A stretch of DNA of 64,000 nucleotides, from contig NZ_PCPT01000001.1 in assembly GCF_002975435.1 (NCBI RefSeq), positions 620,001 through 684,000 on the forward strand, read 5' to 3'. Of the stretch, positions 29,294 to 31,209 are shown one piece after another (the stretch's first letter is position 1; every line of letters starts with the position of its first letter). This DNA is from Arthrobacter sp. MYb227 (GTDB taxonomy: Bacteria; Actinomycetota; Actinomycetes; Actinomycetales; Micrococcaceae). The notes beneath the pieces were generated by a model. It was not told where the DNA came from. It did not search any database and saw nothing but the letters and a program-made list of their open reading frames with translations. The position numbers and the translations under genes were made by a program.

Positions 29294-29506
29294 TTATCCG
29301 GTGCTTGAAATGTCTCCAAAGCCCGCGGCGCGTAGGTATTCTTTCACCGCATTTTCGGGCACCCGGTAGGAACGACCGAATTGTACGGCGGGCAGTTCGC
29401 CCGAATGTACAAGACGATAAACCGTCATCTTTGACACACGCATAATGTCGGCGACCTCAGCCACCGTCATGAACTGCGTGTTGGCAAAGTGTTTAGCCTC
29501 AACCAT
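29294..29506 (-). CDS. bldC: BldC-like helix-turn-helix DNA-binding protein
   Basis: The 70-residue protein is one MerR/excisionase-type helix-turn-helix: FMTVAEVADIMRVSKMTVYRLVHSGELPAVQFGRSYRVPENAVKEYLRAAG. This matches BldC, the small developmental regulator of Streptomyces that is widespread in actinobacteria. In non-sporulating relatives its role is unclear. It is monocistronic, with a 190-base region upstream that holds no gene. Confidence 0.88.
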   Translation of the reverse strand: MVEAKHFANTQFMTVAEVADIMRVSKMTVYRLVHSGELPAVQFGRSYRVPENAVKEYLRAAGFGDISSTG

Positions 29507-29696: not shown

Positions 29697-30821
29697 TTAG
29701 CCTCCAGTGACGCTCCACGAGGTACGAACAGCCGTGGCAAGTTCCTCAAGTGCCGCGGCGCTGACGTCCCAGCCCATGCAAGCGTCTGTAACAGATTGGC
29801 CGTAGGTCAGCGCTCCTAGGACATCTGTGCCAACTTCAACTGCATCTGGGTCATGCTTCTGTGCACCAGCTACTAGGAAGCTCTCCGCCATGATGCCAGC
29901 AACCCTGGAATCCCCCACGGCAATTCGTGCTGCAAGCTCGCTAATGACCTCGGCCTGACGCAGATGGGATTTGCCCGAGTTGGCGTGGCTGGCATCAACG
30001 ATCAGCCGCGGATTCATTCCGGCACTTTGCATTGAGGAAGAAGCTACGGACACTGCCTCATCAGAGTAGTTTGGTCCTTCGGCCCCACCACGCAGGATCA
30101 GGTGTGCATCCTGGTTACCTGCCGTGTTCACTACGGCGGTGCGTCCTGATTCATCTATGCCCATGAATGACTGAGCCTCCGAGGATGCCTGGCACGCATC
30201 GATTGCTACCTGGACCGATCCATCGGTACCGTTCTTGAAGCCCACCGGCATGGAAAGACCGGAGACCAATTGGCGGTGAGTCTGGCTTTCGGTGGTGCGT
30301 GCACCGATAGCTCCCCAGCTGATCAGATCCGCAAGGTATTGAGCGCTGAGCGGCTCAAGGAATTCGGTGGCCAAGGGAAGACCTAGTTCGCTTACCGCAA
30401 GCATGAATTCACGTGCCTTGCGCAGGCCCGCGCCCATCTCGTGGCTGCCATCAAGGTTTGGGTCATTGACCAAGCCCTTCCAGCCTATGGTGGTGCGAGG
30501 CTTTTCGAAGTAGCTACGCATCACGATCAACAATTCGCTCTGGTGCTTTTGCGCGGCTTCTGCAAGACGCTGGGCGTATTCAAGGCCTGCTACCGGGTCA
30601 TGGATGGAACAGGGGCCAATAATGACAAGTAGACGCTGATCTAGGCCCGATAGAACGGCACCGACTTCCTGGCGTGCGCGGGTGATCTTGTAGGCCTGAG
30701 CGTCAGTGACAGGTAATACGGCTACAAGTTCGGCGGGGCTCGGCAGCTCGGTGAAGGAAATGACACGCTCATTGGTGTTTGGACGTGTCTGAGTTTCGGC
30801 GGTGAGGATGTTCGGGTTCAT
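29697..30821 (-). CDS. aroG: 3-deoxy-7-phosphoheptulonate (DAHP) synthase, class I
   Basis: The 374-residue enzyme condenses phosphoenolpyruvate and erythrose 4-phosphate, the first step of aromatic amino acid synthesis. Class I motifs are present: LLVIIGPCSIHDPVAGLEYA (about 65-84), MRSYFEKPRTTIGWKGLVNDP, GAIGARTTESQTHRQLVSGLSMPVGFKNGTDG, LILRGGAEGPNY and IVDASHANSGKSH. The type resembles AroG/AroF of enteric bacteria, which are feedback-inhibited by aromatic amino acids. The gene sits behind an aromatic leader peptide and several hairpins, so its expression is probably attenuated. ATG 30821 follows AAAAGGTCCATC. Confidence 0.95.
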   Translation of the reverse strand: MNPNILTAETQTRPNTNERVISFTELPSPAELVAVLPVTDAQAYKITRARQEVGAVLSGLDQRLLVIIGPCSIHDPVAGLEYAQRLAEAAQKHQSELLIVMRSYFEKPRTTIGWKGLVNDPNLDGSHEMGAGLRKAREFMLAVSELGLPLATEFLEPLSAQYLADLISWGAIGARTTESQTHRQLVSGLSMPVGFKNGTDGSVQVAIDACQASSEAQSFMGIDESGRTAVVNTAGNQDAHLILRGGAEGPNYSDEAVSVASSSMQSAGMNPRLIVDASHANSGKSHLRQAEVISELAARIAVGDSRVAGIMAESFLVAGAQKHDPDAVEVGTDVLGALTYGQSVTDACMGWDVSAAALEELATAVRTSWSVTGG

Positions 30822-30840: not shown

Positions 30841-31013
30841 GGCCCGCATTCGCGGGCCTAATTTTGAATGCGGCCCCGAACTATCGCTGCGTATTTCTTC
30901 AGGGCCGCTATTTTGGAAAATAGCGAAGGGCCCAAGCAATAGCTTGAGGCCCTTGTCGGCTCTGAAGGTGGGTAGGCGAAATTATCGCGTCTTAGGCCCC
31001 TCCAGAGCCGACA
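30841..31013 (-). promoter_or_regulatory. Attenuator-like leader of aroG with four hairpins
   Basis: Downstream of the leader peptide start, the minus strand forms stem 1 (30954-31013: CAGAGCCGACA pairing with TGTCGGCTCTG, overlapping the end of the peptide), stem 2 (30926-30954: AAGGGCC-CAAGC with GCTTG-GGCCCTT, then CGCTATTTT as a U-rich tail), stem 3 (30906-30925, nine perfect pairs) and stem 4 (30841-30858, seven perfect pairs, just before the aroG ribosome site). Stem 1 starts directly after the Trp/Tyr/Phe codons, so ribosome stalling could choose between alternative folds. Stem 2 is the likely terminator. Confidence 0.75.
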
Positions 31014-31041
31014 CAAAATACGCATACCAACGATTAGTCAT
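30982..31041 (-). CDS. Aromatic leader peptide of aroG (19 residues)
   Basis: The ORF encodes MTNRWYAYFVSALEGPKTR. Four aromatic residues (Trp, Tyr, Tyr, Phe) fall within five positions (5-9), far above chance. It begins seven bases after a good -10 box, with no ribosome site, so the message is probably leaderless, which is common in actinobacteria. The UAA stop is inside the loop region of stem 1. It ends about 160 bases before aroG. Confidence 0.82.
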   Translation of the reverse strand: MTNRWYAYFVSALEGPKTR

Positions 31042-31048
31042 GGTCAAC

Positions 31049-31077
31049 AATGTACATACATCGATCACGGAATCCAA
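31049..31077 (-). promoter_or_regulatory. Promoter of the aroG leader transcript
   Basis: The minus strand has -35 TTGGAT (31072-31077), a 17-base spacer and -10 TACATT (31049-31054). The predicted start of transcription is at or one base before the leader ATG (31041). Confidence 0.6.
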
Positions 31078-31135
31078 AATCAAGACCCGCTTCCGGCCCC
31101 TGGGGCCGCGTAACAATGCGCAATCAAAGAATAAA

Positions 31136-31179
31136 AGAGTTGGGTTCACACGGTTGAAAAACCGTGTGAACCCAACTCT
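31136..31179 (-). terminator. Terminator after gdhA
   Basis: Two perfect 20-base arms (31136-31155 and 31160-31179) with a four-base loop are followed on the minus strand by TTTATT. It lies 30 bases past the gdhA stop. Confidence 0.9.
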
Positions 31180-31209
31180 CACTAAGCCATCATGGCCAGG
31201 TGCTTGGTT

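Follow-up and report, generated by a model that had tools for sequence, protein, structure and literature searches.

Does the short open reading frame in front of aroG in Arthrobacter sp. MYb227 control this gene and, if so, by which arrangement of its RNA? The locus lies within the window, i.e. the whole analysed stretch of 64,000 nucleotides, where the leader ORF and aroG share the minus strand and the leader is placed between aroG and an upstream gene that, judged from its sequence, probably encodes glutamate dehydrogenase. A first-pass annotation had claimed a leader peptide with Trp, Tyr, Tyr and Phe followed by stacked stems before aroG. Here, we found both, with codons and paired arms that are conserved and covary, and we consider it probable that together they form a ribosome-mediated transcription attenuator that acts in cis on aroG, is of the AroR kind and uses helix 1:2 (Table 1) itself as the antiterminator.

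The element is single-copy in the source genome (a second, weaker match reads this locus on the opposite strand). Rfam at gathering score returned only a tRNA in the window and no match for the leader, and 18 other leader loci had no Rfam match either. Two neighbouring features were observed beside it. Between the upstream gene and the aroG promoter, the arms AGAGTTGGGTTCACACGG..CCGTGTGAACCCAACTCT at 31129-31182 form an extended, nearly perfect inverted repeat, and on the minus strand a run of T comes after it; we read this as a putative strong terminator insulating the leader. Downstream of aroG on the same strand, 29294-29506 encodes a small helix-turn-helix, excisionase-like protein of 70 aa, BldC-like by eye.

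Table 1. Features of the aroG leader region in the window; all coordinates are window positions.
Feature	Coordinates	Strand	Remarks
Promoter-like pair	31049..31077	-	TTGGAT (31077-31072), 17-nt spacer, TACATT (31054-31049); read from sequence
Leader ORF MTNRWYAYFVSALEGPKTR*	30982..31041	-	19 codons; coordinates include stop
Control codons TGG TAT GCG TAT TTT	31029-31015	-	within leader ORF
Helix A	30971..31028	-	31028-31021 with 30978-30971; one mismatch in window; alternative to helix 1:2
Strand 1, GUCGGCUCUGGAGG	30999..31012	-	inside leader ORF
Mini-hairpin P1 (GGCUC-UGGAG-GGGCC)	30995..31009	-	in ORF; alternative fold of strand 1
Strand 2, CCUUCAGAGCCGAC	30955..30968	-	partner of strand 1
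Helix 1:2	31012-30999 with 30968-30955	-	14 bp; overlaps peptide end
Hairpin T	30926..30954	-	terminator-like, GC-rich; base adjoins strand 2
Hairpin CGCUAUUUUCCAAAAUAGCG	30906..30925	-	built from tail of T
Strand 5	30897..30908	-	second partner of strand 2, beyond T
Hairpin hp4	30870..30908	-	30908-30902 with 30877-30870
Hairpin GGCCCGC..GCGGGCC	30841..30858	-	before ribosome site; arms vary within genus
Apparent aroG Shine-Dalgarno AAAAGG	30833-30828	-	
aroG, type I DAHP synthase	29697..30821	-	PF00793, E 2.7e-80

The promoter-like pair places its TACATT so that it ends 7 nt before the leader ATG. This position is shared by the relatives: a TANNNT hexamer was found 5-9 nt before the leader start codon in 151 of 151 parsed leaders (spacing of 7 nt in 97 and of 6 nt in 50), compared to 4 of 2405 control start codons, i.e. 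the other start codons in the same regions. The leader start was taken as any in-frame candidate (mean 1.6), a freedom that cannot account for this difference. Thus, a -10 box at this spacing would place transcription at the start codon itself, and the leaderless transcript that had been suggested at first gains credit, as the promoter position read from the sequence argues against a start downstream of the peptide. The parsing behind these counts succeeded in 162 of 191 regions, and the 29 misses are mostly non-actinobacterial aroG homologues; among the actinobacterial misses are L020 at a contig edge, L032 and L039 of the Corynebacterium kroppenstedtii group, where a leader was seen in neither, as well as L193, L199 and L041, the last of which carries a leader despite the miss. 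The set of 151 leaves out L044 and L046, which lack a real leader, the misparsed L137 and eight duplicates (L002, L003, L004, L006, L097, L166, L167 and L170), and one further leader was lost from the strand 1:2 energy set.

The aromatic block varies in wording (RWYAYF, RWYSWF, RYPYF, AYWRF, SYRWF, RYFAF), and of its aromatic codons the one closest to strand 1 encodes Phe in 147 of 150 parsed leaders. Its codon choice is opposite to that of the gene it precedes: TAT:TAC is 240:10 in the aromatic block versus 10:553 in 107 aroG genes of the same loci, and TTT:TTC is 141:19 versus 57:750. Because the leaders are related, Fisher p-values for this bias are not to be taken at face value. The bias is present in most groups, with exceptions in the Pseudonocardia group (TAC 4/4) and the Microbacteriaceae (TTC:TTT 9:5). 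TAT and TAC are decoded by one tRNA, and so are TTT and TTC; the preference fits slow wobble decoding at the stall site, or needs at the RNA level. A reading by peptide arrest was dropped, since the residues after LEG vary and some leaders shift frame while the paired arms stay.

The leader RNA is strongly structured. The 231-nt fold reaches -105.6 kcal/mol, while 200 dinucleotide shuffles average -68.66 (sd 4.64; z -7.96) and none comes as low. The stem that had been seen to overlap the peptide end is helix 1:2. The GC-rich stem said to carry a U-rich tail corresponds to T; the stem holds, but its tail in this genome (CGCUAUUUU / CGCUAUUU) is a weak U tract with no clean U run, although the 8 nt after T contain on average 3.55 U over 150 leaders versus 1.02 in the control. 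Two further stems before aroG are likewise present, namely the hairpin built from the tail of T and the one closest to the ribosome site, which lies upstream of the Shine-Dalgarno sequence and does not contain it. Additional folds use the same bases: mini-hairpin P1 is better than 95% of shuffles in 66 of 119 leaders, helix A beats shuffles in 57 of 119, mainly and most strongly in Micrococcaceae and Microbacteriaceae, and hp4 (5~mid) has a mean z of -3.1 in the window's genus (33/143 overall). A pairing of the control codons with 30899-30889, seen in the window's own fold, was set aside, as the bases it needs are not the same in other genomes of the genus.

Helix 1:2 and T are supported by paired change. 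Across both, 97.6% of cells are paired, compared to 36.4-57.1% in slid controls, and 97 cells are changed on both sides against a shuffled mean of 25.1; further pair types are not above shuffles (147 of 500 shuffles reach the count), and 8 of the 14 helix 1:2 pairs are invariant in A1 and hence uninformative for covariation. Among 119 non-redundant leaders, the strand 1:strand 2 energy is lower for the own than for the swapped partner in 16 of 16 groups, while the shuffle score of helix 1:2 is inflated because strand 2 was picked as the best partner of strand 1. The spacing is tight: the gap between strand 2 and T is 0 nt in 115, 1 in 24, 2 in 9 and more in 2 of 150 leaders. The parsing favours small gaps, and the alignment gives the same adjacency (columns 92/93). 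In the window the gap is 0 (30955/30954), and helix 1:2 and T co-form in equilibrium folding.

Is the leader a common companion of aroG? The gene is present in 15 of 15 genomes of the window's genus. In a sample of the family, 82 of 197 genomes gave an aroG match, of which two are marginal (E 7e-4 and 1e-3), leaving 80 clear cases. A 30-base motif (TGGTATGCGTATTTYNNGTYGGCTCTGGAG, at most 3 mismatches) occurred once each in 79 genomes, with no match for the reversed control. All 79 belong to the 80 genomes with a clear aroG, on the same strand and 122-271 nt upstream of the aroG match, and none to the 117 genomes without one; thus, the leader goes with the gene. The sole clear-aroG genome without a motif match (G132) has a leader with one inserted base (L137). 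In 46 non-redundant leaders of Micrococcaceae and Microbacteriaceae we found 29 invariant columns, which fall mainly in the control codons and the strands of helix 1:2, and in the ORF the nucleotides and not only the residues are frozen, as TGGTATGCGTATTT and GGCTCTGGAG. The first-pass annotation had named conservation of the aromatic codons and paired arms in Micrococcaceae as its own test, and both are conserved there.

The element extends further into the class. With an E-value cut-off of 0.01, a covariance model of the 46 leaders matched 46 of 394 class genomes. The 38 accepted matches, which leave out six further partial matches (T only), all adjoin a DAHP synthase gene, which is of the aroG type in 31 cases and of the DAHP synthase-chorismate mutase type in 7 (L191-L195, L199 and L206), the latter gene not being an aroG orthologue; its assignment rests on PF00793 plus PF01817 for L191 and on tblastn for the others. 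Two matches, L204 and L205, were rejected, with no DAHP synthase nearby. By eye, the leaders of L193 and L199 seem to keep only the Phe codon. Diverged aromatic leaders were found at named loci of Dietzia, Pseudonocardia, Actinoplanes, Micromonospora, Phytohabitans, Kribbella, Kutzneria, Ornithinimicrobium and Brachybacterium. A scan for TGGTGG ORFs with a -10 box near trpE of 17 relatives (L238-L254) gave no convincing leaderless ORF with tandem Trp codons; a 5-codon TGGTGG candidate on the opposite strand in L250 was taken as chance. Trp sensing by a leader in this genus may be at aroG only.

A precedent exists in Corynebacterium, where the AroR leader-peptide attenuator of C. glutamicum aroF was reportedly described by Neshat et al. 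in 2014. In the passages that treat it, AroR is a leader peptide (Phe-Tyr-Phe) before aroF (PMC11802643, PMC4046766, PMC7356990), and the review among these states in its AroR passage that ribosome stalling under Phe limitation raises transcription, with no response to Tyr (PMC11802643). As far as these passages go, mixed aromatic codons in the leader of a DAHP synthase gene are thus not without precedent. In our Corynebacterium sample 45 of 151 genomes match the window aroG, 40 of them strongly, and an RFYF leader was found in 29 of 29 loci scripted out of these 40, its start preceded by a -10 box at a distance of 6-8 nt; one genome (G677) contains an exact 21-base stretch of the published aroR primer. 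In all 27 parsed leaders of the 29 (L210 and L217 were not parsed), helix 1:2 lies directly against T or overlaps it by 1-2 nt, strand 2 pairs with the T arms in 1 of 27 and 0 of 27, and the ORF beats shuffles with T3' in 5 of 27. In the C. kroppenstedtii group, aroG of L032 (NZ_JAGSOA010000002.1) stands close behind another gene with no leader seen.

AroR and the window element therefore share a leaderless ORF with clustered aromatic TTT/TAT codons before a DAHP synthase gene, a helix 1:2 set against the terminator, and a strand 2 without a terminator partner. They differ in the codon run, F-Y-F in Corynebacterium and W-Y-A-Y-F in the window, in the tail, which is U-rich in Corynebacterium, and in strand 5, which is absent there (2/27). 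The window element would work like AroR, as a variant rather than a strict member, and we treat the codon run as a lineage difference. It is set apart as a variant by its mixed Trp/Tyr/Phe input, its frozen nucleotides, a flush layout in which no strand competes, strand 5 and the second type of target gene.

The published direction of AroR control together with the shared layout makes it the simplest reading that helix 1:2 is the antiterminator. The transcript would begin at the leader ATG or beside it, and a ribosome would load on its 5' end. When charged tRNA-Trp or tRNA-Tyr is short, it would halt on the upstream codons (Trp, first Tyr) and leave strand 1 free to pair with strand 2. T would have to close in the RNA exit channel, which a rigid helix lying directly at the base of T would be expected to impede, and the 14-bp helix 1:2 would in this way keep T from forming inside RNA polymerase and allow read-through into aroG. 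With aromatic tRNAs charged, the ribosome would cover strand 1 up to the stop codon, helix 1:2 would be lost, T would form and transcription would end. Three steps of this scheme are inferences: termination at T in this genus, the blocking of T by helix 1:2 through its position and not through shared bases, and the choice of the codons that are read. As helix 1:2 and T co-form at equilibrium, antitermination needs a steric effect. Of the attenuator with a fourth hairpin that was proposed at first, the core of a leaderless attenuating peptide is upheld, at the level of the sequence, while the fourth hairpin finds no support as part of the mechanism.

The codon positions bear on which amino acid is sensed. 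A ribosome extends some 12-13 nt downstream of the first A-site nucleotide. In the window the distance to strand 1 is 17 nt for Trp, 14 for the first Tyr, 8 for the second Tyr and 5 for Phe, and an aromatic codon at least 13 nt upstream of strand 1 is present in 144 of 150 leaders. Set against the reach of the ribosome, these distances predict that Trp and Tyr shortage would be read more strongly than Phe shortage. In a C. glutamicum-like leader the codons are 10, 7 and 4 nt away; the first Phe is best placed there and the 13-nt rule is not clean. Points against the AroR-like explanation include the weak U tract of T, the lack of a role for strand 5 in the model, and the flip of strand 2 to strand 5 in folding when the ribosome is on the Phe codon.

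The last two points lead to a translational alternative, in which the ribosome sets the partner of strand 2, either strand 1 or strand 5, and thereby alters access to the aroG ribosome site. A second partner of strand 2 beyond T is indeed conserved: complementarity between strands 2 and 5 is found in 91 of 119 leaders (89 of 119 with separate shuffles), and their own energy is below swapped in 12 of 16 groups. Ribosome masks in 44 folded leaders also flip strand 2 between its partners, with 13.0 pairs in 1:2 and 0.5 in 2:5 at the Trp stall, and 1.7 and 6.4 at the Phe stall. In addition, a passage of one paper terms AroR a translational regulatory leader peptide (PMC7356990). However, the mean unpaired fraction of the Shine-Dalgarno region in these 44 leaders is 0.46-0.47 in every ribosome state, and its pairing beats shuffles in only 17 of 143 leaders with strand 5 and 16 of 143 with the intervening region. 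Pairing at the ribosome site is hence not a conserved part, which speaks against the fourth hairpin claimed there, and a relay from strand 5 to the Shine-Dalgarno sequence, or direct pairing of the two, was rejected for the same reason. Strand 5 is, moreover, missing from Corynebacterium, and it cannot affect T, as T is made first. A translational attenuator therefore appears unlikely. In ermC-type translational attenuators a stalled ribosome shifts one strand between two partners; the conserved pairing that hides the Shine-Dalgarno sequence was not found in the window element (17 and 16 of 143).

A classical attenuator of the trp type would instead place an antiterminator strand in competition for the terminator. 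Leader codons, stop codon and a terminator-like hairpin are all present, and the leader shares with the E. coli trp attenuator the control codons in a leader peptide, the terminator hairpin and an upstream stall that frees a downstream helix. In RNA truncated before T3', masking also produced weak pairing of strand 2 with T5' (0 pairs at the Trp stall, 2.4 at the Phe stall, 3.4 with strand 1 fully masked). Yet the pairing of strand 2 beats 95% of shuffles in only 4 of 119 leaders with T5' and 6 of 119 with T3', where about 6 are expected by chance; the ORF reaches 13 of 119 with T5' and 16 of 119 with T3', a small excess over chance. On E. coli trp the same score does pick out the antiterminator (z -1.95, rank 0.027), and so does the truncated fold, with 5.0 upstream pairs on T5' at the Trp stall and 0.2 at the stop; the fold of the completed terminator is uninformative, as P(T) of this control is 0.92-0.95 in all states. 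Strand 2 and T are, furthermore, contiguous, which leaves no loop for a hairpin of strand 2 with T5'. In E. coli trp the antiterminator shares a terminator strand and the first hairpin of the fold ends 22 nt before the terminator, whereas here the helix directly adjoins T, and neither a classical antiterminator strand nor any strand shared with T is conserved. We thus regard competition for the terminator as quite improbable. To a similarly small probability we would assign an RNA-binding protein or other trans-acting factor that reads the conserved RNA with the peptide being secondary, since the ORF nucleotides are frozen beyond the need of codon identity, but other families keep the aromatic residues and change the surrounding nucleotides, the ORF with its -10 box at the start codon is kept throughout, and the freezing can be accounted for by the helices, the wobble codons and the other folds in which these bases take part.

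The AroR-like reading also has parallels in other amino-acid leaders. The ilvB-II motif of Corynebacterium, in the section that describes it, has a uORF over one stem followed by a terminator stem, in one copy per genome (PMC10272879); this is the same plan as in the window, with branched-chain codons and ilvB in place of aromatic codons and aroG. The LEU element before leuA in Actinobacteria, as outlined in part of PMC1262725, forms a pseudoknot and extends its base stem to the leuA SD box; a leader ORF within a conserved RNA structure is common to both elements and the pseudoknot is particular to LEU. In its survey of 20 genomes the same paper describes phenylalanine and tyrosine operons as having no conserved structure in front of them (PMC1262725). 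Our literature search, with most subscription journals outside its scope, found no account of the leader outside Corynebacterium.

What does this mean for aromatic amino-acid synthesis in actinobacteria? DAHP synthase is the entry to the pathway and an engineering target in these organisms. Its attenuator was published from C. glutamicum, and the same kind is now traced through many actinobacterial genera and to a second type of DAHP synthase gene. As a tentative possibility, we suggest an old actinobacterial class of attenuators, in which the antiterminator would share no strand with the terminator and a helix ahead of the stalled ribosome would block T by its flush position. In the read-through mRNA, strand 5 beyond T would act as a decoy that captures the second strand of this helix. 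The order of the codons, with Trp and Tyr far and Phe nearest, would let aroG answer Trp and Tyr shortage and respond little to Phe, and one element would serve two different kinds of DAHP synthase gene. If this is right, it would raise the question whether an RNA helix can antiterminate purely by its position beside a terminator, for which the family would offer more than 100 natural variants for testing.
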